Notes: generated by a model not told the origin, from the sequence alone. Counted from the stretch's first letter, positions 7,691 to 25,823 are shown. The stretch is 31,786 nucleotides of DNA from a virus (IMGVR_UViG_3300050821_006660:1-31786); one strand, 5' to 3'. Numbers and translations are program-made.

Positions 7691-7941
7691 TGAAAAACCC
7701 ATCAGGGGTGGACCAAGAACGGTCAACGACCGAGAAGCCGCGCGACTTCGGGTCGGACTTTTGCCTGCCGGCGCTCTCGGGGCTCAACCGCAAAGAAGCG
7801 GCGCGCGTGGCGCTCGCGCTCGATGCCGCGATCCTGTTCGGCGTGCTCGAATACGCTGAGGGCAACACGTCGTTGCAGGACCTGGGCGCGGTTCGGAAGC
7901 GGTACGCCGAGAAGGTGGCTCGCTTGAACGGCGCGCACTGA
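7690..7941 (+). CDS. Small protein with repeat-encoded N-terminus (83 aa)
   Basis: Residues 5-13 (SGVDQERST) are encoded by dispersed repeat copy B and are shared with three unrelated proteins encoded at 24115, 24664 and (as GVDQERST) 13563. The remainder is helical (EAARVALALDAAILFGVLEYAE) with a basic C-terminus. An in-frame GTG inside the repeat could serve as an alternative start. Function unknown. It is coupled to the microprotein upstream by ATGA and lies one base before the endolysin. Confidence 0.7.
   Translation: MKNPSGVDQERSTTEKPRDFGSDFCLPALSGLNRKEAARVALALDAAILFGVLEYAEGNTSLQDLGAVRKRYAEKVARLNGAH
7701..7731 (+). repeat. Dispersed dyad repeat, copy B
   Basis: This is a complete plus-oriented copy beginning ATCAGGGGTGGACC, with spacer AAGAAC and right arm GGTCAACGACC. 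It lies in frame within the first codons of the 83 aa gene. Confidence 0.9.
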
Positions 7942-7942
7942 G

Positions 7943-8608
7943 ATGGCAAAGGGCATCGACATCGCCGGCGACGTGCGCCCCCATCTCGACAAGCTGAAAG
8001 CCGCAGGCGTCGAGTTCATCTTCCGCTACTACGCGCGCCACACGCACATCCCCGGCAAGATCCTCACGTTGGACGAAGCGCAGGCGATCAGTGCCGCGGG
8101 GTTCAAGCTCGGCGCCGTGTACGAGAACGGATTCCCGACGACGGCCGAGTACTTCACGAGCGAGCAGGGGAAGGCGGACGCCGCTTCGGCGCTCAACCAA
8201 GCGCTGATGATCGGCCAGCCCGCCGAGACGCCGATCTACTTCGCGGTCGACTGCGATCTCTCGTATGACGCGATCAGCACGCGGCTCTTTAACTACTTCG
8301 TCGGCATTCGCAACACGTGGGACGTCCCCGGCCATCCACGACTCCCGTACGCTGTCGGCGTCTACGGCTCCGGGCTCGTCTGCGAGAAGATGACGGACTG
8401 GGTGCTGGCGAATTACTCATGGCTCGCCGGCGCGAAAGGATGGCAGGGCTACGAAGCATTCCTCCCCCGCGCCACCATCGTCCAAGCGCCGTTCCCGGAA
8501 AGCTTCCCTCGCGATCTCCACGATTTCCCCTACTCCGACAGCGACTGGGACACGACGTCGACGGAAGACTACGGGGGGTTTCAGGTGCCGGTCGCGCCGA
8601 CGGCGTGA
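7943..8608 (+). CDS. Endolysin candidate: DUF1906-type glycoside hydrolase
   Basis: The 221 aa protein matches the TIM-barrel glycoside-hydrolase-like family typified by DUF1906 (Rv2525c-like). Landmarks are GIDIAGD at the N-terminus, FIFRYY near residue 26, AGFKLGAVYENG near 52, IYFAVDCDLS near 98 with paired acidic residues, YAVGVYGSG near 136, and a terminal DSDWDTT. It spans essentially only the catalytic domain, with no obvious cell-wall-binding module and no signal peptide. Export would need a holin or another route. It most likely cleaves peptidoglycan glycan chains during lysis or entry. Neighbouring holin-type genes support the lysis role. Confidence 0.8.
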   Translation: MAKGIDIAGDVRPHLDKLKAAGVEFIFRYYARHTHIPGKILTLDEAQAISAAGFKLGAVYENGFPTTAEYFTSEQGKADAASALNQALMIGQPAETPIYFAVDCDLSYDAISTRLFNYFVGIRNTWDVPGHPRLPYAVGVYGSGLVCEKMTDWVLANYSWLAGAKGWQGYEAFLPRATIVQAPFPESFPRDLHDFPYSDSDWDTTSTEDYGGFQVPVAPTA

Positions 8609-8611
8609 GCG

Positions 8612-8776
8612 ATGATCGCGCTACCGGGTGAGGTGAGCGTCGCCGTGGTGTACGCCGGTGCCGTATACGACCGGGTCGTCACACGTTGGGTGCGCTGCCG
8701 CGTGTGCCACAAGCCGCTCGAACCGCGCGACTTCTGCGCCGGCTTCTCCGTCTGCGACGATTGTCCGATCGAATGA
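8612..8776 (+). CDS. Zinc-ribbon microprotein (54 aa)
   Basis: This short frame starts with ATG three bases after the endolysin stop. It has two Cys pairs, CRVC at residues 29-32 and CDDC near 48-51, plus another Cys between them, as in treble-clef or zinc-ribbon knuckles. The gap between neighbouring genes is exactly filled. Function unknown. Confidence 0.6.
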   Translation: MIALPGEVSVAVVYAGAVYDRVVTRWVRCRVCHKPLEPRDFCAGFSVCDDCPIE

Positions 8777-8777
8777 T

Positions 8778-8975
8778 ATGTCCACGGTCTGCACCGTCGC
8801 GATCGACGTCGAGATCACCGATGAGGAGCGTCATATTCTCGGCCGAGTCCTCGCCCGACAGCGCATCGGCTCCAAAGGGCAGCACAACCCTTACGCGAAC
8901 CGGGCCGAGATCAAGGCGTGGGCCCGCCAAGTGCTCGCCGCCGAGATAAAGCGTCTCGGCACGCGTAACTTGTAA
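8778..8975 (+). CDS. Small protein of unknown function (65 aa)
   Basis: The product begins with a beta-like segment (TVCTVAIDVEI) and then a helical, basic segment (ILGRVLARQRIGSKGQ, IKAWARQVLAAEIKRL). Its start follows the zinc-ribbon gene stop by one base. No family recognised. Confidence 0.65.
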   Translation: MSTVCTVAIDVEITDEERHILGRVLARQRIGSKGQHNPYANRAEIKAWARQVLAAEIKRLGTRNL

Positions 8976-9002
8976 GCCTCTCTCACGCCCGGAGCCCTGA
9001 CC

Positions 9003-9356
9003 ATGCTCTCGCAACCCCTCATCTGCATCATCCTCGGGTTTGCCATCTCGCTGGCCGTGAACGCGCTCAAGTCGCTGCCCTTCGTGAAGAACAACCCGGT
9101 CGTCGTGGCCAGCGTGGTGTCGATCTTGCTCTCGCTGTTGCAGCAGGTCCATCTCACGGGCGGCATCTTCTCCGCGTTCAACCCGATCGATCTCGTCGTC
9201 TGCTTTCTGACGCAGCTCTCCGCGGCAGTGGCCACGCATGAAATCGCGATCAAGCCGGCCGCGCAGCGGTTGGTGAACGTGAATCCGCCCGCCGTCCAGT
9301 TGCCCCCCGTGACGAACGCGGGGCTGACGACCACGCCCGGCTCGCTTCTCAAGTAG
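9003..9356 (+). CDS. Holin candidate, multi-pass membrane protein (117 aa)
   Basis: Two clear hydrophobic helices occur near residues 6-22 and 32-51, and a third weaker one near 61-83. The C-terminal tail is Pro/Thr-rich and soluble. GGAG precedes the ATG by eight bases. Size, topology and position just downstream of the endolysin gene fit a phage holin. An alternative is a virion membrane protein. The hypothesis rests on topology, not on a recognised holin family signature. Confidence 0.6.
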   Translation: MLSQPLICIILGFAISLAVNALKSLPFVKNNPVVVASVVSILLSLLQQVHLTGGIFSAFNPIDLVVCFLTQLSAAVATHEIAIKPAAQRLVNVNPPAVQLPPVTNAGLTTTPGSLLK

Positions 9357-9363
9357 GTTCCCC

Positions 9364-10005
9364 ATGGAACTCACCATCCATCTCCATATCCACGATCATC
9401 GCTCTCCCCATTCAGAGGACCGCTTTATGTCTGCACTCGACGATCTCACTAGTGCCATCAACTCCCTCGGCACGGCCCTGACGAACATCGCCACGGCGGT
9501 GGCCAACCTCCCGGCCGCGGGCGGCGCCACCCCGGCCCAGCTCAACGCGCTCAAGACCGCTGTCCAGGCCGAGCTCGCGACCGCCCAGAGCGTGCTCGCG
9601 GCGCTGACCCCGACCGGCGGGACCCCGACCGCCCAGATCGCCACGGCGCTGACCGGCGTCTCGAGCGCGGTCTCGGCGCTTCCCACCGCGGGCGATGCCA
9701 CGGATGCCCAGGTCGCGACGGTCGTCTCGGCGGTGACCCCGCTCTTGGCCTCGGCCCAGACGGCGCTCGCCACGATCACGCCGGCCACCGCGGCGACATC
9801 GGCCGTGGGCGCGGCCTTGAGCAACATTCAGAACGCCGTGGCGGCGATCCCCGCCCCGACCGGCGTCGGGCTGCCGGCCGCGCAGGTTCAGGCGTTCGTA
9901 GCGACGGTCACCACGCAGGTGACGGCGGCGCAGACGGCGCTGGCCACGATCCCCGCGCCGGCGGCCCCGGCTCCGGGCGCTACGGCGAGCGCGTTCAAGC
10001 GGTAA
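9364..10005 (+). CDS. Ala-rich internal-repeat protein (213 aa)
   Basis: The N-terminus MELTIHLHIHDH resembles the start of small coiled-coil proteins commonly found near phage lysis genes. From about residue 22 the protein consists of Ala/Thr/Val heptad-like helices. They form about three ~50-residue units, each containing a block like AQxxLAxxTP followed by a small-residue linker. An internal ATG at 9427 (MSALDDLTSAI) is an alternative start. The elongated helical repeat architecture suggests a fibrous or spacer function. The actual role is unknown. Confidence 0.65.
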   Translation: MELTIHLHIHDHRSPHSEDRFMSALDDLTSAINSLGTALTNIATAVANLPAAGGATPAQLNALKTAVQAELATAQSVLAALTPTGGTPTAQIATALTGVSSAVSALPTAGDATDAQVATVVSAVTPLLASAQTALATITPATAATSAVGAALSNIQNAVAAIPAPTGVGLPAAQVQAFVATVTTQVTAAQTALATIPAPAAPAPGATASAFKR

Positions 10006-10027
10006 GACCGGTAAGTTCTGGCGGATC

Positions 10028-10513
10028 ATGCCCGTTGATGATCCGAGCCCAAGCGATGCGCTCCGTGTCCATCTGGATGCGGAGCGCAGTCGTTTGTACG
10101 AGAAACTGTACGATGAGCGGGACCGCTGGTACCGAGAACGCCATGACGCGCAACGCGAGCTGGCGGCCGAGCGGGATCACCGGTATACCGAGCGGTTCAA
10201 TGCCCAGGAAGAGGCCCTACGGGTAGCTCGCGAGTCGTGGAAGCGGGAGCTGGCCGGCGTCAACGAGCTTCGGGGCCAGTTGAACGACGTCATCGACACG
10301 AAAGCCGAGAAAGGCGAGACCAATATCCGGGTCGATGCCGTGGACAAGAAAGTCGACGACTTGACGACGACGGTGGCGGCACTGACGGCCACGGTCGCGA
10401 AAGGCGGGGGCCGGTCAGCGGGGCTCAACGCGGGCTGGGGCTATCTGCTAGGCGCCATCGGGGCGTTGGCCATATTGTACAGCATCCTTTCGCATCTCGG
10501 GACCAAGCCATGA
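10028..10513 (+). CDS. Coiled-coil protein with C-terminal membrane anchor
   Basis: The 161 aa product has a long charged coiled coil (residues ~13-110, very rich in Glu, Arg and Asp), a Gly-rich hinge, and one hydrophobic segment near residues 135-153 (GWGYLLGAIGALAILYSIL). Such tail-anchored coiled coils are common in phage lysis or membrane modules. A spanin-like or membrane-tethering role is possible, but the orientation (anchor at the C-terminus) is not that of a classic i-spanin. Confidence 0.65.
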   Translation: MPVDDPSPSDALRVHLDAERSRLYEKLYDERDRWYRERHDAQRELAAERDHRYTERFNAQEEALRVARESWKRELAGVNELRGQLNDVIDTKAEKGETNIRVDAVDKKVDDLTTTVAALTATVAKGGGRSAGLNAGWGYLLGAIGALAILYSILSHLGTKP

Positions 10514-10520
10514 GGAACCC

Positions 10521-11057
10521 ATGAGCCCCCTCACCTCTCGCCAGTGGGTCCAGCTCGCCATCACCACCGCCGTCCTGGTAGCGGCCGGGCTGGGTGGGGT
10601 ACTGGCCACCAGGGCCACCGCCCCGAAACTCGCTCCTGCGGTCAGCCAGCCCCCCGCAGCGGGCATTTCAGCTCCCGTCACGCCAAGTGCGCCGAGCCCG
10701 ATAACGGCCTTTGACACCGCCCATGAAGTGTCCAACTCGGCGCCCCTGGCCGTTCCACCGGTGAGCGCCCCCGATGCTGGGGCCGTGCTCGCCTGGCAGG
10801 GCATCATCGCCGTCAACGACACGACCGGGAATCTCCGGTCCGATCTCGGGTGGCGGCCGGCGACCCAGGGAGAGTCGGTATTAGGGGTGCTTCGATGCGC
10901 CGTCGCCACCGAAGTCAAGCCCCGGCCGCGGCGGGTTCTCGTGGCGCCGAACAGCCCCATCGCGGCACCGACGTACGTCTGGACCGTGTGCTCGAGAGGG
11001 TTCGCCCAGTGGGACTCGCTCGAGGCGGCATCTGGGGGCAGGTGGCCGAAGCCGTAA
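10521..11057 (+). CDS. Membrane-anchored protein with Pro-rich stalk (178 aa)
   Basis: A single hydrophobic helix near residues 10-27 (QLAITTAVLVAAGLGGVLA) is followed by a Pro/Ala/Ser-rich stalk to about residue 90. A soluble domain with two Cys follows. The layout is that of an N-in, C-out envelope protein. It closes the lysis cluster, so an outer-envelope disruption role is conceivable. I recognise no family. Confidence 0.6.
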   Translation: MSPLTSRQWVQLAITTAVLVAAGLGGVLATRATAPKLAPAVSQPPAAGISAPVTPSAPSPITAFDTAHEVSNSAPLAVPPVSAPDAGAVLAWQGIIAVNDTTGNLRSDLGWRPATQGESVLGVLRCAVATEVKPRPRRVLVAPNSPIAAPTYVWTVCSRGFAQWDSLEAASGGRWPKP

Positions 11058-11088
11058 CCGTTGTATTATTGGCAGTATTCGGCCCGTG

Positions 11089-11126: not shown

Positions 11127-11211
11127 GTTGCCATCCACTGGGGATGCTCCGGTCGCCGACAGTCCTCGGCTGGGGCTCAATACGGGAATGCTCCGGCCGA
11201 GGGCGCTCCGG

Positions 11212-11240
11212 CCGTTGATCGTTCTTGGTCCATCCCTGAT
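11212..11240 (-). repeat. Dispersed dyad repeat, copy C
   Basis: This minus-oriented copy has core TTGATC-GTTCTT-GGTCCA followed by TCCCTGAT. It lies upstream of the first gene of the accessory operon. Confidence 0.85.
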
Positions 11241-11244
11241 GTGG

Positions 11245-11261
11245 CTTCTCGGTCCATCCCA
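11245..11261 (-). repeat. Half copy of the dispersed dyad repeat
   Basis: CTTCTCGGTCCATCCC repeats the spacer and distal arm of the element only four bases after copy C. It looks like a remnant of a tandem copy. Confidence 0.55.
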
Positions 11262-11311
11262 AAAAGTCTGTAGTCTTGTGCTCCACGGTGGAGATCAGTA
11301 ACCGTTCCGGT

Positions 11312-11539: not shown

Positions 11540-11793
11540 AGACCGATGGCATCCGGTCCCTCGTGCGAACGCTCGCCCGCACGGTCGGGGCGGCCCGATT
11601 CATTGAACGAGATTTAGAGCCGAAGATCCGGCGCGCCGCCCAGGCAAAACTCGATGAGTTCGAGCGGACCGTGGATGAGACGCACCAACTACTAGCCGAG
11701 ACGTATCGCGCCGGCGGGATGAGCGAGAGTATGATCTCCGACCTAGAGAGGCATCGCCGCGAGAACGATCAACGACGGGTGCGCGAGAGATGA
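11536..11793 (+). CDS. Charged helical protein (85 aa)
   Basis: The protein is almost entirely helical and highly charged (KIRRAAQAKLDEFERTVDE and the C-terminal ERHRRENDQRRVRER), consistent with a coiled coil or nucleic-acid-binding helix. Starts and stops overlap both neighbours. Function unknown. Confidence 0.7.
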   Translation: MKTDGIRSLVRTLARTVGAARFIERDLEPKIRRAAQAKLDEFERTVDETHQLLAETYRAGGMSESMISDLERHRRENDQRRVRER

Positions 11794-12305: not shown

Positions 12306-12734
12306 ATGGCGGAACCGCTTGCGGTAATGATCGAAAAGGCCCGGAACTATCTCCGTACCGTCGGCAGCGGCCTCACTCGCCAACAGATTTCCGACGCCCT
12401 CTTCCGTCAGTTCAAGGATCTCAAGGACGCGCTCATCCCGATACTGCTCACGCGGTGGGTCTGGGAGCAGATGCGCGCGCTCAAGAGCGACGACCGGATT
12501 CCCCTGTTCGGCGTCTTCGCACGCGAAAGAGAGATTGCGGTTACGGCCGAGCGCGCACCGGTCGTTCGGGAGGTGGACTGGACGGAGTCGCAGTATGTAG
12601 AACAGGCGCGGCGATACAAACACTCCATCGATGCCCAGCAGCGAAAACTGGATGCTCTAGCGGTCCGGTATCAGAGCCGATTCAAAAAGCCCTTGCAGCT
12701 CGACCTGTTCGAGAAACCCCCGAGAACCGAGTGA
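12306..12734 (+). CDS. Protein of unknown function (142 aa)
   Basis: The ATG is preceded by AGGGGAA eight bases upstream. Residues 1-70 look like helices with a possible DNA-binding fold (LTRQQISDALFRQFKDLKDAL), and the C-terminal part is basic and helical. It is the first gene after the 19-bp dyad and so may be the regulated target. Function not recognised. Confidence 0.7.
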   Translation: MAEPLAVMIEKARNYLRTVGSGLTRQQISDALFRQFKDLKDALIPILLTRWVWEQMRALKSDDRIPLFGVFAREREIAVTAERAPVVREVDWTESQYVEQARRYKHSIDAQQRKLDALAVRYQSRFKKPLQLDLFEKPPRTE

Positions 12735-13033
12735 CCAACCGCAAAGCCAACCGGGCCGCTCTCTCCCGCGCAGCGGAAACGCTCGCCAACTACCCGAAGG
12801 TTCCCGAGCCCGCGACGTCTCCCGTCTGTGATGCCACGAGAGCGGTCCTCATGGGAATGCAGCTCCAAGCGCAGACGATCCAAGAAGCGCAGAACGCCAT
12901 CAACCGGGTGGTCTCCGCGTACAACTCGACGATGCAGGCCATCGGCGCCTTGGCCGCACGAGCGGAGAACGTGAACATCGAAACCCACCAGTTAGACGTC
13001 GACCGGATGGTGTGGGTGGAGCGAAAGAAATGA
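12731..13033 (+). CDS. Helical protein of unknown function (100 aa)
   Basis: The start is GTG overlapping the upstream stop (GTGA). The product is mainly helical, with a basic N-terminus (TNRKANRAALSRAAETLANY) and an Asn/Gln-rich amphipathic helix (IQEAQNAINRVVSAYNSTM). No membrane segment. Function unknown. Confidence 0.65.
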   Translation: MTNRKANRAALSRAAETLANYPKVPEPATSPVCDATRAVLMGMQLQAQTIQEAQNAINRVVSAYNSTMQAIGALAARAENVNIETHQLDVDRMVWVERKK

Positions 13034-13034
13034 C

Positions 13035-13065
13035 ATCAGGGGTGGACCGAGAAGGGTCAACGACC
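13035..13065 (+). repeat. Dispersed dyad repeat, copy D
   Basis: This full plus-oriented copy has spacer GAGAAG. It exactly fills the gap between a stop codon and the next ATG. Twenty-four bases are identical in inverted orientation to copy E at the other end of the following gene. Confidence 0.9.
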
Positions 13066-13066
13066 A

Positions 13067-13333
13067 ATGCTGCGCGACTGTAGCCCGCCGAAAGACGGCG
13101 AGCCGTATTACTATCGACTCACGATCGCGCTCGTCCGCGTCGACCACGCGAGCGGCGACGAGTGCGACGAGCGGTTCACGATGACGGCTCGGCTCGGCGG
13201 CTACGTGCCCGCCTTGTACGAGCGGCTCATATCGGAAGTCGAGATGTGGGACATGCTCGCGCGCGGCGGGTTCATCTCGCCAAAGGATCGGGCCCTCGCG
13301 GTTGACCCTTCTCGGTCCACCCCTAGTCTTTGA
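13067..13333 (+). CDS. Small protein bracketed by inverted dyad copies (88 aa)
   Basis: The ATG comes right after copy D. The end of the protein (VDPSRSTPSL) is encoded by copy E. The body is mixed alpha/beta, with the strand YYYRLTIALVRV and acidic patches. The gene plus its two repeats forms a roughly 290-base cassette-like unit. No function recognised. Confidence 0.65.
   Translation: MLRDCSPPKDGEPYYYRLTIALVRVDHASGDECDERFTMTARLGGYVPALYERLISEVEMWDMLARGGFISPKDRALAVDPSRSTPSL
13299..13327 (-). repeat. Dispersed dyad repeat, copy E
   Basis: This minus-oriented copy carries the same GAGAAG-type spacer as copy D, and AGGGGTGGACC through GGTCAAC is identical after reverse complementing. It encodes the C-terminus of one gene and ends 10 bases before the next start. 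Confidence 0.9.
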
Positions 13334-13337: not shown

Positions 13338-13559
13338 ATGATCGCCGAAGGCCGCTACATAGAATCCCACGTCCGGCGCGGGACCGCCAAAGGGAAATGG
13401 CGTCTCGTCGGTCGATCGTACGGCGGGCAAGAGGTCATCTGGTTGACCCCGCAGCCCGATGGTAACTATCTCGTGGGGACCAAGCTCCACTCGCCCAAGC
13501 CGATCCACATCGATTTACTCTGTCATCTCATGTACGGCGCCACCCAGGAAAGTGACTGA
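13338..13559 (+). CDS. Small protein of unknown function (73 aa)
   Basis: The sequence suggests a small beta domain (KGKWRLVGRSYGGQEVIWL, GNYLVGTKL) ending in a helix. The ATG lies 10 bases after repeat copy E. No family recognised. Confidence 0.6.
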   Translation: MIAEGRYIESHVRRGTAKGKWRLVGRSYGGQEVIWLTPQPDGNYLVGTKLHSPKPIHIDLLCHLMYGATQESD

Positions 13560-13562: not shown

Positions 13563-13856
13563 ATGGACAGATTAGGGGTGGACCAAGAACGGTCAACGGC
13601 GGAACCCGTGCTCGATGCGGAAGGTCTAGGTGTCGACGCGGTCACGGCGCAAATCATCGTCGACGATCACATGACAGAGGCGTCCGTCGTTCGTGCATTC
13701 GCCGCGCGCATGCTGGCGCGTTACGACACGATGGACCTGCCTCAGCGGTACGAGGCGGCCGCGAAGAACTTGCAGGACGTTGCGCGCATTCTAGAGCGCG
13801 GTGCCTGCAATGCGGCGCGCCGGTTCTTTGTTGACCGTTCTCGGTCCACCCCATGA
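13563..13856 (+). CDS. Small protein with repeat-encoded N- and C-termini (97 aa)
   Basis: Residues 5-12 (GVDQERST) come from dyad copy F, and the last residues (VDRSRSTP) come from the inverted copy G, so the gene is bracketed by the element within its own coding frame. The core is helical (ASVVRAFAARMLARY, YEAAAKNLQDVARIL). No function known. It overlaps the next ATG. Confidence 0.65.
   Translation: MDRLGVDQERSTAEPVLDAEGLGVDAVTAQIIVDDHMTEASVVRAFAARMLARYDTMDLPQRYEAAAKNLQDVARILERGACNAARRFFVDRSRSTP
13571..13600 (+). repeat. Dispersed dyad repeat, copy F
   Basis: Plus-oriented copy with left end TTAGGGGTGGACC, spacer AAGAAC and right arm GGTCAACGGC. It lies in frame at codons 4-13 of the 97 aa gene. 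Confidence 0.9.
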
Positions 13857-13857
13857 T
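13830..13857 (-). repeat. Dispersed dyad repeat, copy G
   Basis: Minus-oriented copy, GTTGACC-GTTCTC-GGTCCACCCC, ending in the ATGATG start of the next gene. It is the inverted partner of copy F. Confidence 0.9.
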
Positions 13858-14134
13858 GATCTTGCTCTCCGACGTCGACCCGGAAGACGACGACCTCGAC
13901 GACGATTTGGACTTCGACGATGACGAGATGGAGGACGAGGACGGGGGGCCCGAGGATGACCTCGATGCGAACACCGAAGGGGACCTCGACCTGGACGAAG
14001 ACGACGACGATCTCGATGACGAGGATGATCTCGAGGACGACGACGAAACCTGCGAGCACGGCAAGACGCTCGACGAGCACTGCCCCGAGTGCGATGGCGA
14101 CGACGACGAGGACGAGGATGACAGAGAAGGCTGA
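13853..14134 (+). CDS. Polyacidic protein with zinc-knuckle motif (93 aa)
   Basis: Asp and Glu make up well over half of the residues, in runs such as DDDLDDDLDFDDDEME, and basic residues are nearly absent. Near the C-terminus, CEHGKTLDEHCPEC gives a Cys-x-His-Gly ... Cys-x2-Cys zinc-knuckle-like motif. The charge pattern resembles DNA-mimic or histone-chaperone-like proteins, and a role countering DNA-binding host proteins is conceivable. The low-complexity GAC/GAG composition also allows a neutral origin. The start is one of two adjacent ATGs right after dyad copy G. Confidence 0.6.
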   Translation: MMILLSDVDPEDDDLDDDLDFDDDEMEDEDGGPEDDLDANTEGDLDLDEDDDDLDDEDDLEDDDETCEHGKTLDEHCPECDGDDDEDEDDREG

Positions 14135-14387
14135 GGAGTCTGAGGCGGTCGGCCGCCACATCGCAACGAACGACGCTGATCTCGTCGCGGAGATACGGGC
14201 GCTGCATCTGCAATGCGTCCGCCTGGGGCTTCGCGGCGTGATGGTGCTACAGGGCGATGACTGCTGGCGCGTGCAGCCGCTCGGCAACGTCATGCCGCTC
14301 GACAGTCTCGGGCTGATGTCGGCTGGTGCGGCACTCGAGCGTGTTCGGCTAGCGGAGGTCTACCTTGCCGACCGAAGAGATGGCTGA
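14118..14387 (+). CDS. Small protein of unknown function (89 aa)
   Basis: It starts inside the end of the polyacidic gene in another frame. The product is an alpha/beta protein with LVAEIRALHLQCVRLGLRG and VMVLQGDDCWRVQPLG, the latter looking like a short beta hairpin. No family recognised. Confidence 0.65.
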   Translation: MTEKAEESEAVGRHIATNDADLVAEIRALHLQCVRLGLRGVMVLQGDDCWRVQPLGNVMPLDSLGLMSAGAALERVRLAEVYLADRRDG

Positions 14388-14634
14388 CGAGCCCGAGACC
14401 GTCGCCGGCTATTGGGTGCAGATGCGCCACGCCGAGTCGGGCGGGATCGTCTTGTCGGATGCGGTCGTGACCGAATGGGCGGACGTGGCCTTACGGAAAG
14501 CGCTCGACCACCTCGACGCGATCACGCACCCGATCGGCACGCACCTGCGCGGCGCGTTCGTGCTGCATCTCACACCGACCGAGTTTGTCGTTGATCGTTC
14601 TCGGTCCACCCCTGATGGTGATTTGCATGCCTGA
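14380..14634 (+). CDS. Small protein with repeat-encoded C-terminus (84 aa)
   Basis: The ATG at 14380 overlaps the upstream stop; a TTG at 14365 would add five residues. The body is alpha/beta (GYWVQMRHAESGGIVLSD). The tail VDRSRSTPDGDLHA is encoded by dyad copy H. Function unknown. Confidence 0.6.
   Translation: MADEPETVAGYWVQMRHAESGGIVLSDAVVTEWADVALRKALDHLDAITHPIGTHLRGAFVLHLTPTEFVVDRSRSTPDGDLHA
14587..14616 (-). repeat. Dispersed dyad repeat, copy H
   Basis: Minus-oriented copy, TTGATC-GTTCTC-GGTCCACCCCTGAT. It covers the end of one gene and stops 10 bases before the ATG of the next. Confidence 0.9.
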
Positions 14635-15132: not shown

Positions 15133-15350
15133 ACAGCAAGCGGTGCGTGTTTTTGCTCACGCTGGACGAACTGGCGCCGGGGTCGACGCAGTTCGAGGGC
15201 GATTTCCTGCGATGCCTCTCGACGGACACCCGCCCCGTCCGCGTCGGGGACTCGACGATGCTGTTGTGTGAGGCCCACGAACGGGAAGCCCTAGGCGAGA
15301 CCGACATCGCCGGCTACGAGGGTGACACCTCGCGATACGGCGCGCCGTGA
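15129..15350 (+). CDS. Small Cys-containing protein (73 aa)
   Basis: GTG start coupled to the preceding gene. It has Cys residues at 6, 29 and 47, plus a His at 50 (CEAH), which may bind metal, and an acidic C-terminus. No family recognised. Confidence 0.55.
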   Translation: MNSKRCVFLLTLDELAPGSTQFEGDFLRCLSTDTRPVRVGDSTMLLCEAHEREALGETDIAGYEGDTSRYGAP

Positions 15351-15580
15351 ACCTGACGTGCCAGTGGCCCGCGTGCCGGGAAGCAGCGAAGGCCCCGCTC
15401 GAGAATCCCGTGGCCTGTCGCTCGCACTGGTGGCATCTCGCGCCAGTCACCCGCCGCTGGCTCGTCAAACAGTACAGCATGAGCGAGCTCCGGCCCGTCG
15501 GGAGCTACGAGCGGGCGCTCTGTCTCTTGCGACACGACGATAAGGGGCTGGCGAAACTACTTGGGGCGGAATGGTCGTAG
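15347..15580 (+). CDS. Zinc-finger-like small protein (77 aa)
   Basis: GTG start in a GTGA overlap. The motif CQWPAC followed by CRSHWWHL resembles short phage zinc-finger proteins of the CxxxxC...CxxH type. The C-terminus is basic and helical (YERALCLLRHDDKGLAKLL). It closes the accessory operon before the recombinase. Confidence 0.6.
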   Translation: MNLTCQWPACREAAKAPLENPVACRSHWWHLAPVTRRWLVKQYSMSELRPVGSYERALCLLRHDDKGLAKLLGAEWS

Positions 15581-15588
15581 TCCGTCGC

Positions 15589-15616
15589 GTTTGACCGTTC
15601 TCGGTCCACCCCTGAT
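15589..15616 (-). repeat. Dispersed dyad repeat, copy I
   Basis: Minus-oriented copy, TTTGACC-GTTCTC-GGTCCACCCCTGAT, starting eight bases past a stop codon. It does not overlap a gene. Confidence 0.9.
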
Positions 15617-15639
15617 CTGTCAAGCCCTTAAATAGCCAA

Positions 15640-15857: not shown

Positions 15858-16508
15858 ATGCTCGTTGGTTACGCGCGCATCTCGACCGCCGACCAACACC
15901 ACGCGCTGCAGCATGATGCGCTCGAGGCGGCCGGATGCGAGAAGATCTTCACCGATACGATCTCGGGCGTCAAGGCCCAGCGGCCCGGGCTCGATGACGC
16001 GCTCAAGTTCGTGCGCTCGGGTGATGTCCTCACCGTCTGGCGTTTGGATCGGCTCGGCCGGTCCCTCCCCCATCTCCTAGGGCTGACCCGGGACCTCGCG
16101 GACCGCGGGGTGGAGCTCCGGTCCCTCACGGAATCGATCGACACTCGCACCGCGGCCGGTCGGCTCGTGTTTCACGTCTTTGCTGCGCTGGCCGAATTTG
16201 AGCGCGATCTGACCCACGAACGGGTCGCATTGGGCCGAGCTGCAGCGCGCGCCCGGGGGCAGTTAGGCGGACGTCCGCCTGTCCTCACCCGCGAACAGGA
16301 AAGGGCCGTAGCAGCCCTCGTAGACGCCGGGCACATGTCGATCGCCGGCATCTCCCGGATGTTCAAGTGCTCCCGTATGACCGTCCACCGGGCGCGCGCA
16401 CGCACCACCCGTTCACCCTCCCACCCAGATGGCGGCAATGGCACATCACCCGAAGGACATGAACCAGGACACCACCCGGTTGGTCGACTGGACCACGCTG
16501 GACCCTGA
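15858..16508 (+). CDS. Serine recombinase, resolvase/invertase family
   Basis: The 216 aa protein has the small serine recombinase layout: YARIST at residues 5-10 with nucleophile Ser9 and Arg7, WRLDRLGRS at 61-69 with the active-site arginines, the AEFERDL segment and long E helix at about 101-135, and a C-terminal helix-turn-helix at 143-182 (MSIAGISRMFKCSRMTVHRA). The last ~30 residues are disordered. Start ATG is chosen because the next residues match the family N-terminus. It would catalyse resolution, inversion or integration at dyad sites. On a circular genome, multimer resolution is the simplest role, and action on the dispersed dyads is a speculative alternative. Confidence 0.92.
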   Translation: MLVGYARISTADQHHALQHDALEAAGCEKIFTDTISGVKAQRPGLDDALKFVRSGDVLTVWRLDRLGRSLPHLLGLTRDLADRGVELRSLTESIDTRTAAGRLVFHVFAALAEFERDLTHERVALGRAAARARGQLGGRPPVLTREQERAVAALVDAGHMSIAGISRMFKCSRMTVHRARARTTRSPSHPDGGNGTSPEGHEPGHHPVGRLDHAGP

Positions 16509-18483: not shown

Positions 18484-18723
18484 ATGACGGGAACCGAACG
18501 CCGGTTGTTGTTCAAGGCGAGCTGTAAGGGCAAACGGGAAACGCAGGCGGCGCTCTGTCGGCGGTGGGACTTTTCGGTGACGCACATCACGGATGTCCTC
18601 TTAGGGAAACGGCCGGGGAGTGCAGGGCTCAGAGATCGGCTGGCGCAGTACTGCGGGGTGCCGATGGGAGAGTTCTGGGGGAGTGGAGAATCGACCAACA
18701 ACGGAGAGTCCGGTGGCGTTTGA
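18484..18723 (+). CDS. Small helix-turn-helix protein (79 aa)
   Basis: Residues ~17-62 form an XRE-like helix-turn-helix (TQAALCRRWDFSVTHITDVL followed by LRDRLAQYCGVPMGEFW). The ATG is chosen over an upstream TTG at 18448 because GGGAG sits just before it and the TTG lies in the presumed origin. It is directly downstream of the iterons, so it may bind them as repressor or initiator. The C-terminal tail is Gly/Asn/Ser-rich and disordered. Confidence 0.7.
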   Translation: MTGTERRLLFKASCKGKRETQAALCRRWDFSVTHITDVLLGKRPGSAGLRDRLAQYCGVPMGEFWGSGESTNNGESGGV

Positions 18724-18967
18724 AATCGTGGTTCTGGATCGCGGGTTTGTCTATGTCGGCGATGTGGAGTCGGAAGGCGATACGCTCGTCATCTCGGGCG
18801 CGAAGAACATTCGCTACTGGGGGACGACGAAAGGACTGGGAGAATTGGCGCTTGGCGGGCCGACCCCGAACACGAAGCTCGACGAGGTGGGGACCGTGCG
18901 CGCCCCGTCGCGGGCCGTGATCCACCGCATTGACACGGACAAGTCGAAGTGGCCGCCGAAGCGCTAA
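18713..18967 (+). CDS. DUF6948-type conserved phage protein (84 aa)
   Basis: The sequence FEIVVLDRGFVYVGDVESEG, then NIRYWGTTKGLGELALGGPT and TKLDEVG, matches the widespread DUF6948 phage family from my knowledge of it. GTG at 18713 is the natural start, since the conserved domain begins at once; it overlaps the upstream gene by 11 bases. Function of the family is unknown. It is followed by a Gly-Tyr repeat gene, an association I recall from other phages. Confidence 0.75.
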   Translation: MAFEIVVLDRGFVYVGDVESEGDTLVISGAKNIRYWGTTKGLGELALGGPTPNTKLDEVGTVRAPSRAVIHRIDTDKSKWPPKR

Positions 18968-19119
18968 TCGTCACCCTTGACGGCTCCGGCTACGGCTACG
19001 GCTCCGGCGACGGCTACGGCTCCGGCTCCGGCTCCGGCTCCGGCGACGGCTACGGCTACGGCGACGGCTACGGCTACGGCTACGGCTACGGCGACGGCTA
19101 CGGCGACGGCTACGGCTGA
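18949..19119 (+). CDS. Gly-Tyr/Ser/Asp repeat protein (56 aa)
   Basis: From a GTG overlapping the previous gene, the frame reads a short lead (VAAEALIVTLDGSG) and then about 23 alternating Gly-X dipeptides with X = Tyr, Ser or Asp, ending GYGDGYG and stop. This frame is preferred over the Ala-Thr-Pro and Ser-Arg alternatives because of the LVTLDGSG-type lead and the translational coupling. Low-complexity Gly-Tyr repeats are prone to condensate or fibril formation. The role is unknown. Codons are TAC, TCC, GAC and GGC only, so the DNA is a six-base tandem repeat. Confidence 0.65.
   Translation: MAAEALIVTLDGSGYGYGSGDGYGSGSGSGSGDGYGYGDGYGYGYGYGDGYGDGYG
18979..19118. repeat. Hexanucleotide tandem repeat (GGCTAC/GGCTCC/GGCGAC)
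   Basis: About 23 consecutive six-base units differ only at positions 4-6 (TAC, TCC or GAC). The substitutions change the encoded residue only between Tyr, Ser and Asp. Repeat number is likely to vary between related genomes by slippage. Confidence 0.9.
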
Positions 19120-19387
19120 GAGAGGCGCTGCAGTTTCGTTTGTTTTTCGGGGTTGTGTTACCAGACGGGCGGCGGGTCGTCTGTAGAGCAGCGGGATGGA
19201 CCAAGAACGATCAACGGCGAAGGCAACAACTGAGTCTCGGCGCGGCGGTGTTACGGCACCTTGAGCGGAAGGGCAACGGCTAATTCCGCCACTCGTTAGG
19301 CCGTGACTGCGAGGACAGACGCGATCTCAGGCTAGGGGGCCGAGCAACCCCAACGCCCACTCACCACCCAGATGCGAGGATGCGGCG
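19120..19387. other. Non-coding gap with dyad copy J
   Basis: The 268-base gap contains short inverted repeats (CAGACG at 19162 with CGTCTG at 19178; GCGGAA at 19265 with TTCCGC at 19284) and dyad copy J. A 22-codon frame beginning MDQERST at 19196 runs from the repeat but has no other support. I see no credible gene or tRNA. It separates the replication module from the next operon, so a promoter or terminator function is likely. Confidence 0.5.
19193..19218 (+). repeat. Dispersed dyad repeat, copy J
   Basis: Plus-oriented copy, GGGATGGACC-AAGAAC-GATCAACGGC, with one changed base in the right arm. It is intergenic. Confidence 0.8.
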
Positions 19388-21082: not shown

Positions 21083-21427
21083 ATGCGAAGCACCCCTCTC
21101 CGTCCCTCTCTCAAGCCCATCCCCCGCTACACGGCATTACGGCCCGTGGGGCCGGCGAAAGCAAAGCGCGATGCCAAGTACAAGAAGTACATGGCGAGCG
21201 CGGCGTGGAAGAAAAAGCGCGATGCCGTCATCGCACGAGCGGCGGGCAACTGCGAGCGGTGCGGGACTCCGTTCGCCGACCAGGGCGTGACGACCTGTCA
21301 CCATGTGACGTATGTCCGATTTGGGCATGAGCGACTGACGGATCTCATCGCGATCTGCTGGGCCTGTAATGAGGACTTCCACGGGAACGCGTACTGGCGA
21401 TCACGGCATCGGAGAATCACATCATGA
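21083..21427 (+). CDS. HNH endonuclease (114 aa)
   Basis: The basic N-terminal half is followed by a complete HNH core: CERC at 57-60, CHH at 72-74 with the catalytic-type His, and a second Cys pair CWAC at 92-95 followed by His100. Zinc-bound HNH nucleases of this size nick or cut DNA. In tailed phages they often sit beside terminase, but here none is visible, so a free-standing homing or replication-related nuclease is likely. Confidence 0.85.
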   Translation: MRSTPLRPSLKPIPRYTALRPVGPAKAKRDAKYKKYMASAAWKKKRDAVIARAAGNCERCGTPFADQGVTTCHHVTYVRFGHERLTDLIAICWACNEDFHGNAYWRSRHRRITS

Positions 21428-21651
21428 GACGCCCCATCGATTTCGGTGTGGTCGGCGCCTTCGCCTTCTTCGGTCTCGTCTGCGGGATCTGCGGCTATGC
21501 GATCGGATGGGATCAAGCGTGCGTTCCAACATCACCAGTAAGGACATCCGGGATAGACCACGAACGGTCAACGGCCAGTGCCATCTGCGTGCAAGAGTCG
21601 GCGTGGCGGGACGGGCTGACGGTCGCGTGTGCGCGAGAGCTAGATCGATGA
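21424..21651 (+). CDS. Membrane microprotein interrupted by dyad copy K (75 aa)
   Basis: One hydrophobic helix spans residues ~7-28 (FGVVGAFAFFGLVCGICGYA). The segment TSGIDHERSTAS near residues 41-52 is encoded by dyad copy K in frame, acting as linker between the membrane helix and a short Cys-containing tail. Coupled on both sides by ATGA. Function unknown. Confidence 0.65.
   Translation: MRRPIDFGVVGAFAFFGLVCGICGYAIGWDQACVPTSPVRTSGIDHERSTASAICVQESAWRDGLTVACARELDR
21546..21576 (+). repeat. Dispersed dyad repeat, copy K
   Basis: Plus-oriented copy with variant left arm (ATCCGGGATAGACC), spacer ACGAAC and right arm GGTCAACGGCC. It is the only copy well inside a gene. Confidence 0.8.
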
Positions 21652-22533: not shown

Positions 22534-22874
22534 GCGATCGCATGGCGTTGGTACTCAGATGCCTCGCGGCCGGCCTTTGGGGCGGGTTCTTCCTGCAAGC
22601 GTGCGAAGCGCGGGTCGCCGTCTCCTCGCATGCGGCCGACTCGGCGCGCGCCGAAGGGGAGTCCCTCCCCCGGATGCGGGCCACGCACATCTCTGACCCT
22701 GAACCCGGACCCATCGAGCACGTGAAGGGCTATCGTATCTTTCAGGCGGGAGACTGTACCGTCTGGCGGTTCCAAGACTCAGTCGGGATACACTACCTGG
22801 CGGAAGGGCGGAACACATCGTTTAGCCCAGCCAATCACGCGCAAAACGCGCTCGCGTGTTCTGTGGCGCGATGA
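22530..22874 (+). CDS. Putative lipoprotein (114 aa)
   Basis: GTG start in a GTGA overlap. The N-terminus MALVLRCLAAGLWGGFFLQAC, counted from the internal Met, resembles a signal peptide ending in a lipobox-like LQAC. The soluble domain has GYRIFQAGDCTVWRFQDSVG, which looks like a small beta domain. An envelope-exposed lipoprotein could act in superinfection exclusion or lysis; this is inferred from the signal alone. Confidence 0.55.
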   Translation: MSDRMALVLRCLAAGLWGGFFLQACEARVAVSSHAADSARAEGESLPRMRATHISDPEPGPIEHVKGYRIFQAGDCTVWRFQDSVGIHYLAEGRNTSFSPANHAQNALACSVAR

Positions 22875-23080
22875 GCGGAGAGAAGCAAGTCATGGCGATA
22901 TTTCGCCGCCGAGAAGCCCTGGGCGGGATGGATGAGGTGCGGGTCTACTCATTCCCTGGCGATTTCTACTGTTTCGCGCAACGGGTCGGCGATACGTCGA
23001 GCTCTACTCCCAAGCTCGACTTCCTGTCGTTGGCTGATATGCTGACGTTCTGTGGGTATGTGCGAGGGGATTCACCATGA
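22871..23080 (+). CDS. Small protein of unknown function (69 aa)
   Basis: The start overlaps the upstream stop. It has two short beta-like segments (EVRVYSFPGDFYCFAQRV) and a hydrophobic helix near LSLADMLTFCGYV. No family recognised. Confidence 0.6.
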   Translation: MSGEKQVMAIFRRREALGGMDEVRVYSFPGDFYCFAQRVGDTSSSTPKLDFLSLADMLTFCGYVRGDSP

Positions 23081-23394
23081 GCAAACTACGCCCCGAGTGC
23101 ACGACGGGTACGAAACCGGCAATCCCTGACGATACCGCGCTCTTTCTCATCCGCGATGCGGTAGCAAGGCGCAAGTCGCTCATCTACGGGAAGCTTCACG
23201 ATGGGAAGGGCCACCATTGCGCTATCGGCGCGTTCTGGGACGACAACCCGAATGCGACGCTGACGTTTCGGCTGATCGACGAGGTGGCGACGGTGAATGA
23301 TTCGGTAGGCCCGACTGCCACGGCGCGAGAGCGGTGGCAAAAGGTCAACGAGTGGTTGCGCTGGAAGATCAAACGCCTAGCCGGAGCAACGTGA
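23077..23394 (+). CDS. Phage accessory protein with CAIGAF motif (105 aa)
   Basis: The arrangement of an N-terminal helix (ALFLIRDAVARRK), a central CAIGAF after a Gly-His-His stretch, and VNDSV near residue 73 recalls small phage proteins of the DUF6197-like kind. I cannot confirm membership by eye. Overlaps both neighbours. Confidence 0.55.
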   Translation: MSKLRPECTTGTKPAIPDDTALFLIRDAVARRKSLIYGKLHDGKGHHCAIGAFWDDNPNATLTFRLIDEVATVNDSVGPTATARERWQKVNEWLRWKIKRLAGAT

Positions 23395-24125
23395 AACCGA
23401 AGCCCAGGGGTGGACCGAGAACGGTCAAGCGCAAGGTCCAACGTGAGCGCGACGCGATTGCCGAGCGACTGACCACAGCGGACCTCGATGCGCTGGCCGG
23501 CCGGACAGACCCCGTCAACATCGCCGGCCCTTACGAAGAAGCGACAGGCCTCGACAACATCGTCGACGGCCAACCCATCCCGCCTCCGACTGCCGTGCCC
23601 TTCTCGCCCCAGCCCGCCCCCTGGTCCTGCCAGTGCGGCGTCGATCGCAACAGCGCCTTGGTCGACGAGTGTCCCGTCTGTCACACCAAACGCCCCTACG
23701 AGTACACAGCGCCTAAACCGGTACTGGCTGTGCCATCGGACTATCCCCAACCGGGAGAGTCGATGGCAGACTACGCGGCACGGATGCAGCAGGGGAAACT
23801 CGCCGATACGACGAAAGACGTGACAGTCGAAGGCGGCATCCAGACGGCCGACCCCGGCCGCGCCCGCGAGCTGCCCGACCCGAAAGGCATGCTGGCCAAA
23901 GGCTACGCGAGCCCCATCCAGTTCGCCGGCCCCGTCGGCTCGGTCGACGTGGACCCGTTGGTCTTACAGATGGCGCTCGACGTCGCGAACAAAGCCGCAC
24001 AGACAGGCGTCGTGCAGTCGGTGACGGTGGGACTCAAGAACCCATCGCAGGCGAGATGCATCGTCCGGTTTGATCTCGATGTCGCATCGGTCCCGTGGCC
24101 GAGAGGAGTAAAAGATGAGGGCTAG
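23391..24125 (+). CDS. Zinc-ribbon protein of unknown function (244 aa)
   Basis: GTG start in a GTGA overlap. Residues ~5-14 come from dyad copy L read in a different frame (PRGGPRTVKR), giving a basic N-terminus. Around residue 80, WSCQCGVDRNSALVDECPVC matches the W-C-x-C ... C-x2-C pattern of RanBP2-like zinc ribbons. The C-terminal domain is soluble and beta-rich (VQSVTVGLKNPSQARCIVRF). Function unknown. Confidence 0.65.
   Translation: MKPKPRGGPRTVKRKVQRERDAIAERLTTADLDALAGRTDPVNIAGPYEEATGLDNIVDGQPIPPPTAVPFSPQPAPWSCQCGVDRNSALVDECPVCHTKRPYEYTAPKPVLAVPSDYPQPGESMADYAARMQQGKLADTTKDVTVEGGIQTADPGRARELPDPKGMLAKGYASPIQFAGPVGSVDVDPLVLQMALDVANKAAQTGVVQSVTVGLKNPSQARCIVRFDLDVASVPWPRGVKDEG
23405..23430 (+). 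repeat. Dispersed dyad repeat, copy L
   Basis: Plus-oriented copy, CAGGGGTGGACC-GAGAAC-GGTCAAGC. It is translated in a frame different from copies B, F, M and N, so the protein sequence is not what is conserved. Confidence 0.85.
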
Positions 24126-24435
24126 CGGGGTGGACCAAGAACGGTCAACGGCCAGTTCACGGACATGGGATCTCACGCTGCCGGGGACGGGCGTCGTCGA
24201 CTACGCGTTCTCTCCGAAAGACAAGGGCCAGCGCGCGACGATCACGCTGTTCACTGTAGGCGGTCGACTACCGCAGCCCGGCGATGCCGTGATCATCCCA
24301 CACCACAAGGACCGCCGACCCGGCGCCGAGACGGCGCGTTATCGCGTAGTCGCGACGCGTCGACCATCCGATCCGGGAGACATGGGATTTTGCGATCTCG
24401 AGTTCTGGCCGCGAAAGGCAAACGTCGATGCCTAG
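24115..24435 (+). CDS. Beta-rich small protein with repeat-encoded N-terminus (106 aa)
   Basis: The start overlaps the upstream gene by 11 bases. SGVDQERSTAS at residues 4-14 is encoded by dyad copy M. The remainder is beta-rich (ATITLFTVGGRLPQPGDAVI, ARYRVVATRR), resembling a small OB- or SH3-like barrel. No family recognised. Confidence 0.65.
   Translation: MRASGVDQERSTASSRTWDLTLPGTGVVDYAFSPKDKGQRATITLFTVGGRLPQPGDAVIIPHHKDRRPGAETARYRVVATRRPSDPGDMGFCDLEFWPRKANVDA
24126..24153 (+). repeat. Dispersed dyad repeat, copy M
   Basis: Plus-oriented copy, CGGGGTGGACC-AAGAAC-GGTCAACGGCC, in frame at codons 4-13. Confidence 0.9.
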
Positions 24436-24667
24436 GCACCTCGCCACGATCGGCCGGCTGACGGTCTGGCTCAACGAGCAAGTGCCATCGAGCATGGAAG
24501 ACACGGTCTCTGTGCAACTCGTCCCCGATTCCAAGTACGGCGCTACGCTGGATCTCGATGAGTCCGTCGAGTTAGCCCGGCTCTTGATCAAGACGGCGGC
24601 GCAACACGGATGGGGGGCGGATGAAGATCGACAAAGAGTCATCGCGTGGGCACAGGTGAAGAAATGA
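24428..24667 (+). CDS. Small protein of unknown function (79 aa)
   Basis: A strand-like start (IGRLTVWLNEQV) is followed by an acidic middle and a helix (ESVELARLLIKTAAQHGWG). It overlaps the preceding gene by eight bases and the next by four. Function unknown. Confidence 0.6.
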   Translation: MPRHLATIGRLTVWLNEQVPSSMEDTVSVQLVPDSKYGATLDLDESVELARLLIKTAAQHGWGADEDRQRVIAWAQVKK

Positions 24668-24945
24668 GCGAGGCATCAGGGGTGGACCAAGAACGGTCAA
24701 CGACGGTGCCGCCGCATTGGTGGCTCGCGCGGCTAGAAATGACCGAGTCCGTCCGCCTGGGCGAGCACGACGCCGTGCGGCTCAGTAGCGCCGAGCGGGC
24801 CGTCGAGGGCATCAACATGGCCGATGCGCTCAACGTGGCGGTCTCTTTACTGCGCGATCAGATCCGCCCGTGTCGGTCCATTCTTCTCCGCATCGATGGC
24901 CCCGTTGACAGTTCGTGGCTTGACCCGCAGGCGAAGAAGTCGTGA
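24664..24945 (+). CDS. Small protein with repeat-encoded N-terminus (93 aa)
   Basis: MSEA is followed by SGVDQERSTT encoded by dyad copy N, nearly identical in layout to the start of the unrelated gene at 7690. The rest is alpha/beta (LSSAERAVEGINMADALNVA). Start overlaps the upstream stop (ATGA). Function unknown. Confidence 0.65.
   Translation: MSEASGVDQERSTTVPPHWWLARLEMTESVRLGEHDAVRLSSAERAVEGINMADALNVAVSLLRDQIRPCRSILLRIDGPVDSSWLDPQAKKS
24675..24704 (+). repeat. Dispersed dyad repeat, copy N
   Basis: Plus-oriented copy matching copy B over ATCAGGGG through GGTCAACGAC without a change. Confidence 0.9.
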
Positions 24946-25190
24946 TCGTGCTCGCGGCGTGCATCGCGTTGGTCGTCGGTCTCGGGGTGGGCGCCGGCGC
25001 CGAGCGGTACCTCTTTCGCCGCAAGCACAGTCGCGCCATCTCGGCGCTCGGCCGGATGATCGGAGGGCCCAAAGGGCGCGTGACCTATTCGTATCAGCAT
25101 CCGAGCGGGAAGGGTGAAGCGGACATCTTGAACTTGATCCCGCCCGAGGACCGGACCTCGCTCATGGATCTATGGAGGGACGCGCGGTGA
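24942..25190 (+). CDS. Membrane-anchored small protein (82 aa)
   Basis: GTG start in a GTGA overlap. An N-terminal hydrophobic helix (IVLAACIALVVGLGVGAGA) is followed by a basic stretch and an acidic C-terminus. It pairs with the next gene, whose product has the same layout. Function unknown. Confidence 0.6.
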   Translation: MIVLAACIALVVGLGVGAGAERYLFRRKHSRAISALGRMIGGPKGRVTYSYQHPSGKGEADILNLIPPEDRTSLMDLWRDAR

Positions 25191-25444
25191 TCACGCTCGC
25201 CGTCATCGGCGTCGCCCTCGGCCTGCTGGGCGCAGGATTCGGGCTCGGCGGTCTCCACGCCAACCGGAGATGGCGGAAGTACATCGACAGCCGGCGGGTG
25301 CACGGCTCACGCTCGGTCCAGTGGATCCGAGATACGATCGCGCATCTGCCAGAGCACGAGACCGTTTACCTCGGGCTCTCAGACGAAGAAGCCCGCGCGC
25401 GGTACGGACGTCGTCTTAATTTCCCGTTCTCGGTCAAGCTATGA
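25187..25444 (+). CDS. Membrane-anchored small protein (85 aa)
   Basis: GTG start in a GTGA overlap. An N-terminal Gly-rich hydrophobic helix (VITLAVIGVALGLLGAGFGL) precedes a basic juxtamembrane segment (NRRWRKYIDSRRVHG) and a soluble tail. No family recognised. Confidence 0.6.
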   Translation: MITLAVIGVALGLLGAGFGLGGLHANRRWRKYIDSRRVHGSRSVQWIRDTIAHLPEHETVYLGLSDEEARARYGRRLNFPFSVKL

Positions 25445-25446
25445 TG
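25424..25446 (-). repeat. Possible eroded dyad copy
   Basis: CCCGTTCTCGGTCAAGC followed by ATGATG matches copy G around the spacer and at the downstream start, but both arms are damaged. It could be coincidence. Confidence 0.3.
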
Positions 25447-25608
25447 TTGCCGGACGGGAGATCGCACGAGGAGTTTGACCGCGACCGTAAGGCGTTCGAG
25501 GATCATCTCGACAAGTGCGAGCAGTGCGAGAACCACCCGTTCGCGATGTGTCCGATCGGTATCATGAAGCTTCGCGTCGCGGCACTGGGCGCGAGCCCCC
25601 GCCGTTGA
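25441..25608 (+). CDS. Zinc-finger-like microprotein (55 aa)
   Basis: The ATG overlaps the upstream stop (ATGATG). FEDHLDKCEQCENHPFAMCP has the His-x3-Cys-x2-Cys layout of small phage zinc-binding proteins, reminiscent of anti-sigma zinc fingers. The stop lies inside dyad copy O. A regulatory role is possible but unproven. Confidence 0.65.
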   Translation: MMLPDGRSHEEFDRDRKAFEDHLDKCEQCENHPFAMCPIGIMKLRVAALGASPRR

Positions 25609-25631
25609 TCGTTCTCGGTCTATCCCATGAG
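25602..25631 (-). repeat. Dispersed dyad repeat, copy O
   Basis: Minus-oriented copy, CGTTGATC-GTTCTC-GGTCTATCCCATGA. It contains the stop of one gene and lies nine bases before the preferred start of the next. Confidence 0.85.
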
Positions 25632-25640
25632 GTGGTATTT

Positions 25641-25823
25641 GTGAAGTACCGCGCCACGCTCACCATCGAACTGGAAATACCGGACGACTATTCGGGCCTC
25701 GCCTCGCAAGCGCTTGACGGGATCATCGACCGGATGCAGTACGACTATTACGGCAACCGCATCACGCGCGTCAGCTATACCGATCTCGCCCCCGTCGTTG
25801 ACCCTTCTCGGTCTATCCCATAG
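25641..25823 (+). CDS. Small protein with repeat-encoded C-terminus (60 aa)
   Basis: GTG 25641 is preferred because GAGG lies eight bases upstream; in-frame GTG 25632 is an alternative. The product has a beta strand (YRATLTIELEIP), a helix and a second strand (NRITRVSY), and ends VVDPSRSIP from dyad copy P, whose last bases are the stop codon. Function unknown. Confidence 0.6.
   Translation: MKYRATLTIELEIPDDYSGLASQALDGIIDRMQYDYYGNRITRVSYTDLAPVVDPSRSIP
25794..25823 (-). repeat. Dispersed dyad repeat, copy P
   Basis: Minus-oriented copy, CGTTGACC-CTTCTC-GGTCTATCCCATAG. It ends exactly with a stop codon, 13 bases before the next ATG. It is the last copy before the virion region. Confidence 0.9.

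Follow-up and report, generated by a model that had tools for sequence, protein, structure and literature searches.

A dispersed dyad oriented at gene ends in the accessory region of a virus genome, and its possible role as a frame-preserving cassette boundary

Why does a short dyad recur in near-identical form throughout the accessory region of a virus, and why does it favour the first and last codons of genes? We examined this question in the virus record IMGVR_UViG_3300050821_006660 (G000; 31,786 bp, ~65% G+C), the whole of which is referred to here as the window. Its predicted genes lie nearly all on the plus strand, and it is probably circular because its first 50 bases are identical to its last 50. 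The element is an imperfect dyad of ~27-36 bp, CATCAGGGRTRGACCRAGAASGRTCAACRRC, with the consensus (CATC)AGGGRTRGACCRAGAASGRTCAACRRC. For comparison we used a close sister, IMGVR_UViG_3300037452_000283 (30,196 bp; 70-90% nucleotide identity across the shared parts), and a distant relative, IMGVR_UViG_3300027905_000003 (G007; 58,945 bp), which were all that a search for more relatives via conserved proteins returned. Individual copies are named by the coordinates given in Table 1.

A position-weight scan detected exactly 15 strong copies in the window (30-mer scores of 39-47 bits), all within 7704-25820, eight on the plus strand and seven on the minus strand. Below these, scores fell to 23 (the diverged copy 25420), 11 (the half copy 11239) and -0.4 (the site near 1424), and ten dinucleotide-preserving shuffles of the window contained no site of at least 8 bits. 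With at most one mismatch, the core TGGACC-N6-GGTCAA occurs 14 times in the window and 12 times in the sister, counted as strand hits, compared with 0-2 in composition shuffles; a loose scan with three mismatches (41 versus 27 ± 6) is unconvincing if taken alone. The dispersed dyad reported in a preliminary description of this sequence is therefore real by both controls, and of the sixteen copies listed there fifteen stand, the remaining one ('copy A', near 1424) being half an element only. The arms of the element read GGGRTRGACC and GRTCAACRRC, and the 6-bp centre, RAGAAS, is nearly invariant. The central GA is present in 45/45 copies, although for carriers other than the window GA was part of the search pattern, and invariance at the searched positions is partly imposed by it. 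Five positions (0, 2, 7, 12 and 14) are dimorphic; these are almost unlinked, with 20 haplotypes among the 45 copies, as expected from reshuffling between copies.

Of the 15 window copies, 12 are no more than 40 bp from a start or stop codon, compared with 29% of the region (p = 6e-5), on gene models that beyond the conserved genes were made by a codon-usage script with hand correction and are approximate. This agrees with the proximity to gene boundaries noted earlier. Both orientations do occur, as had also been noted, yet they are tied to the gene. Without exception, the six window copies near a gene start have GGG on the side of the start codon (orientation A), and the six near a gene end have it on the side of the stop (orientation B); in either case the GGG end faces out of the gene. 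A copies usually encode GVD(Q/R)ERST, 9-21 nt downstream of the start codon, and B copies encode VD(R/P)SRSTP just ahead of the stop, many of them 0-18 nt upstream of the next start codon. In most coding copies one frame dominates per orientation, and the earlier statement that copies are read in different frames was mostly wrong. The same frames (GVDxExST at starts, VDxSxST(P) at ends) recur in unrelated contigs (G002, G003, G004, G007, G008 and L089). Exceptions are copy 23411 and its orthologue, copy 19197, G005 1039 and G007 41495, which use other frames; copy 13043, where the window gene starts downstream of the element and out of frame with it; copy 21554, which is mid-gene; and an A copy near a C-terminus in L089. 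Some copies are intergenic, as first described, namely 11215 and copies on contigs of metagenome-assembled genomes (MAGs).

The coding copies retain codons that make up a small part of their families in the core genes of this phage: TCA (7%) and TCT (4%) for serine and GTT (6%) for valine. Because such very rare codons are kept, the constraint is on the DNA and not on the peptide. Orthologous copies agree with the earlier view that the DNA is the conserved part: in eight window/sister pairs, only 2/128 positions outside the five dimorphic ones differ, against ~26 expected at 20% divergence (P = 2e-10), and changes at the dimorphic positions (6/40) come close to the neutral rate. This count covers recognisable copies; a decayed pair (window 11750/sister 3633) was omitted, and its inclusion would not affect the conclusion. 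The copy that ends gene 25641-25823 is also present in G007, where the protein is ~62% identical and a single dimorphic base of the element is different. This uniformity might, instead of purifying selection, reflect concerted evolution through recombination among the copies.

Further evidence on the role of the element came from the points at which the window and the sister part. The gene at 7709 is conserved in the sister apart from 36 extra in-frame bp that directly follow its start codon in the window, and at 14591 and 19197 the element is missing from homologous sister sequence. Relatives with the same gene order and no element, the outcome that had been named as refuting the proposal, are thus seen at three places, and at eight other shared places the sister keeps the element. 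The locus 13043-13302 is bounded in both genomes by homologous neighbours (12731-13033 on the left, 13338-13559 on the right) and by both element copies, and the genes enclosed are unrelated. Elsewhere the window has just the junction 27684-27696 in place of a ~380-bp sister gene that carries A at one end (16738) and B at the other (17065). Facing A..B pairs also enclose one gene each in G002 (3327/3777) and G005 (1039/1505), both otherwise unrelated; a Pfam scan of the element-flanked genes gave just one weak match, to an HD domain in G005. At four copies (13043, 13579, 15591 and 24131) homology is lost on the element's inner side, and at 11215/11239 an older copy runs only to its exact middle, where a complete copy adjoins it.

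We tentatively read the element, at a probability of roughly 0.4, as a putative frame-preserving recombination or cassette-boundary site. It would mark the two outer ends of units, each a single exchangeable gene, in the accessory region and, as genes entered or were swapped, would act as their common joining sequence, the inward-facing copy spanning the first codons of the unit's gene and the inverted copy its last. A nearly constant frame through the site would place a new gene body in frame with a resident start codon and, at the gene end, would keep a harmless hydrophilic tail ahead of the stop. We infer that recombination at the element causes the exchange; the route could be homologous, by annealing of the ~30 bp of identity, or enzymatic, by cleavage, for which the resident serine recombinase would be a candidate in this clade only. 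The hix sites of Hin/Gin-type serine invertases are imperfect dyads of ~26 bp with a 2-bp centre. The element is likewise an imperfect dyad, with an invariant central GA, and a member of the serine-invertase family is encoded in the window and the sister; however, its sequence differs from hix, the enzyme is absent from most carriers and no inversion was seen. The same absence led us to reject the serine recombinase as a general binder of the element. In the pdif modules of Acinetobacter, genes lie between inversely oriented imperfect dyads, dif being composed of 11 + 6 + 11 bp (PMC12907356). Genes flanked by inverted element copies (sister 16738/17065, window 13579/13831, G002 and G005) are similar in arrangement, but the arms of the element bear no likeness to the XerC/XerD arms of dif (CATAA/TTATG), its 6-bp centre is nearly invariant and the carriers share no tyrosine recombinase.

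Several observations weigh against a cassette boundary. The whole region is mosaic, and junctions with the element were not significantly more often non-syntenic than those without it, either in the window (12/14 versus 29/40, p = 0.27) or in the sister (11/12 versus 22/32, p = 0.12). Where the outer side of a junction is conserved and the inner side replaced, the whole core remains with the outer flank, a pattern that does not suggest central strand exchange. Solitary copies are numerous, and copy 21554 sits mid-gene between conserved flanks. The carriers have no recombinase family in common: PF00239 was found in 3/11 (the window, the sister and G007), a count to be read with the caution that some records may be fragments, and PF00589 in G003 and G007 only. 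Finally, the unlinked dimorphisms can also be accommodated by a degenerate consensus for protein binding.

A more general proposition, that phages possess a frame-preserving gene-cassette system in which a dyad in the first and last codons, with a universal frame and outward orientation, makes whole gene bodies exchangeable between viruses and expressed from a resident start codon, appears to us rather doubtful. Its interest lies in a long-standing question, namely how phages gain or swap single accessory genes without damage to operons, to which the usual answer is random illegitimate recombination followed by selection. If true, the proposition would offer a concrete and testable alternative, in which one short site sets the place of joining as well as the reading frame, and would provide a sequence handle for accessory-gene islands in viruses of Gemmatimonadota and of soil bacteria without cultured relatives.

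The distribution of the element bears on all of these readings. Its presence in relatives was borne out by 13 strong copies in the sister (weight matrix) and three copies in G007. Further viral contigs (four copies in G003, two each in G002 and G005, and one each in G004, G008, G009 and L089) and three contigs of Gemmatimonadota MAGs carry it too. The carriers other than the window and the sister have in common a 3' extension, CAGCAAGWWC, which indicates that the family is wider than the clade and that these carriers are not chance hits. A host repeat family, such as host repetitive extragenic palindromic (REP) sequences, was ruled out: only 3/395 Gemmatimonadota genomes have the element, with one copy each. 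Neither INPHARED phages nor PLSDB plasmids gave a 46-bp match beyond chance, and Rfam had no match, in keeping with the first impression that this is not a recognised sequence. The hits of a broad scan with GACC..TCAACRGC were for the most part unrelated phage genes rich in AT, and the scan was discarded. In a Gemmatimonadota MAG (L025, 6794-7315) the element lies in frame in a gene that by eye resembles a TraF-like signal peptidase, which suggests that it is also present in conjugative elements.

The alternative that survives best, although we consider it unlikely, is a regulatory or architectural site at which a phage protein, for example the Cro/C1-like protein encoded at 18484-18723, binds the dyad at gene boundaries and silences or insulates accessory genes. 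Half-sites of the form RTNGAYC make up the dyad, and the pattern of change between orthologues, frozen everywhere except at five two-letter positions that vary at a near-neutral rate, resembles a degenerate recognition consensus, which accounts for the freezing as well as a cassette boundary does. The rare codons also fit constraint on the DNA, as does the retention of one C-terminal element in G007. On the other hand, a binding site does not predict a shared frame together with strict outward orientation at both gene ends, and the central AGAA is almost invariant, although the centre is usually the tolerant part of a dimer site. Furthermore, the element is near-absent from hosts, and no DNA-binding protein was common to all carriers at E 1e-5. 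The stoperators of cluster A mycobacteriophages, to which the element was initially likened, are asymmetric, lie mostly in one orientation with respect to transcription and are bound by the immunity repressor (PMC6550527, PMC9283540). Such binding stops elongation. Their dispersal is comparable, with many near-identical sites per phage genome (here 15 and 13) and few degenerate positions. In contrast, the element is a dyad, occurs in both orientations on genes of mostly one direction with its orientation set by the gene end, codes in a fixed frame and is found in unrelated viruses; kinship with stoperators is weak.

Unlikely in our judgement, although still a contender, is a selfish insert, a miniature palindrome like the Rickettsia palindromic elements (RPEs), REP sequences or miniature inverted-repeat transposable elements, that spread through Gemmatimonadota viruses and survived where it was harmless, in frame at gene ends or between genes. 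Clean presence/absence at 7709, 14591 and 19197 and the single copies in unrelated viral and MAG contigs are consistent with such an insert, which would also account for the frame. RPEs are palindromic bacterial elements of ~150 bp that occur in frame in unrelated genes (PMC10969869), and the in-frame insertion of a peptide at 7709 is similar; the element differs in its size of ~27-36 bp, in lying mostly at gene ends, in being oriented and in being frozen between orthologues. Moreover, old orthologous copies show no decay at non-degenerate positions, and strict orientation is unexpected since harmless insertion leaves both orientations open. No target duplication was seen and no transposase was noticed among the scanned window proteins, where no search was aimed at REP-associated tyrosine transposases (RAYTs).

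It is very improbable that the element acts as an RNA hairpin at gene junctions to control the start of translation or the processing of mRNA. The spacing of the A copies from the start codon behind them, and of many B copies from the one ahead, would suit such a role, and one B copy folds better than its shuffles (z -3.1). However, z is about -1 for most copies, the two orientations yield different RNAs (loops AGAA and UUCU) that are conserved equally, variants in orientation A give C-A mismatches, compensatory changes are seemingly absent among copies and the Rfam search was negative. The stem is short and imperfect, unlike the G+C stem of an intrinsic terminator, and no T-run terminator was found at the element sites. 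A promoter reading of TTGACC was rejected by eye for want of a -10-like partner at 17 bp. The same features limit the early comparison with the gene-boundary stem-loops of T-even phages. The promoter early stem-loops (PeSLs) of T4-type phages are reportedly mobile regulatory cassettes in which an early promoter is joined to a terminator stem-loop. What stands of the analogy is a short conserved boundary sequence tied to the shuffling of gene modules, but the element has no recognised promoter or terminator, lies inside coding ends and occurs in both orientations. None of the stoperators, pdif modules, RPEs and PeSLs is a home for the element.

A peptide tag acting at the protein level, a sorting or scaffolding signal (VDQERST / VDRSRSTP) as might be imagined from the one dominant frame and the preference for arginine over tryptophan in window and sister B copies, is hardly credible, given synonymous positions frozen on rare codons, intergenic copies (11215; MAG contigs) and other frames at 23411, 19197 and G005 1039.

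Table 1. Copies of the element and the candidate enzyme gene in the window (A and B, orientations as defined in the text).
Feature	Position	Strand	Remarks
Element A (copy 7709)	7704..7730	+	First codons of gene 7690-7941; inserted in frame (36 bp), not in sister
Element B (copy 11215)	11211..11237	-	Intergenic; fused into middle of older copy
Older B copy, outer half (copy 11239)	11235..11261	-	Truncated at centre; intact in sister at 2776
Element A (copy 13043)	13038..13064	+	Left boundary of swapped gene 13067-13333; sister homology stops at inner edge
Element B (copy 13302)	13298..13324	-	Last codons of gene 13067-13333 (..AVDPSRSTPSL-stop)
Element A (copy 13579)	13574..13600	+	First codons of gene 13563-13856 (MDRLGVDQERST..)
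Element B (copy 13831)	13827..13853	-	Last codons of gene 13563-13856 (..FVDRSRSTP-stop)
Element B (copy 14591)	14587..14613	-	C-terminus of gene 14380-14634; homologous sister gene without element
Element B (copy 15591)	15587..15613	-	Just past stop of gene 15347-15580, upstream of serine recombinase gene; kept in sister (7449)
Element A (copy 19197)	19192..19218	+	~27-bp insertion, absent from sister
Element A (copy 21554)	21549..21575	+	Within gene 21424-21651; sister has copy at same place
Element A (copy 23411)	23406..23432	+	First codons of gene 23394-24125, read as ..PRGGPRTVK.. in a different frame; sister has copy
Element A (copy 24131)	24126..24152	+	First codons of gene 24115-24435; sister homology stops just inside
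Element A	24678..24704	+	First codons of gene 24656-24945 (MSEASGVDQERST..)
Element B	25601..25627	-	Gene end near 25608
Element B	25794..25820	-	Last codons of gene 25641-25823; present in sister and distant relative G007
Diverged copy	25416..25442	-	3' end of gene 25187-25444
Half/degenerate copy	1420..1446	-	Intergenic gap 1338-1483; absent from sister
Decayed copy	11750..11776	+	Right half only; sister counterpart at 3633 more complete
Serine recombinase (Resolvase/DNA invertase family)	15858..16508	+	Candidate cognate enzyme

Two observations concern sequence next to copies of the element. Within 15347-15620, the frame continues past a TAG stop at 15578 with SVAFDRSRSTPDLSSP and a further stop, as if the gene had formerly ended in an element-encoded tail. 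Directly downstream of an element-flanked gene, 13853-14134 encodes a small protein that is extremely rich in Asp and Glu and is possibly a DNA mimic.

As for the virus itself, proteins encoded in the window include a DUF3987 helicase/primase-like protein, the serine recombinase of the invertase group, a D12 methyltransferase, an HNH protein and an Rv2525c-like glycosidase; no tRNA was found. The protein encoded at 693-1337 is conserved in the sister (97%) and in G007 (38%) and had zero matches among INPHARED phages, and its AlphaFold model, with a predicted local distance difference test (pLDDT) value of 30, is uninformative. The virus is apparently a member of a group that has not been described. 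Tandem paralogous genes at 4832-5626 and 5643-6494 are 74% identical across 300 bp (5226-5525 versus 6094-6393). A short gene of GYG/GSG/GDG repeats (18949-19119) lies within a ~500-bp insertion relative to the sister, and this insertion replaces the C-terminus of the Cro/C1-like gene.

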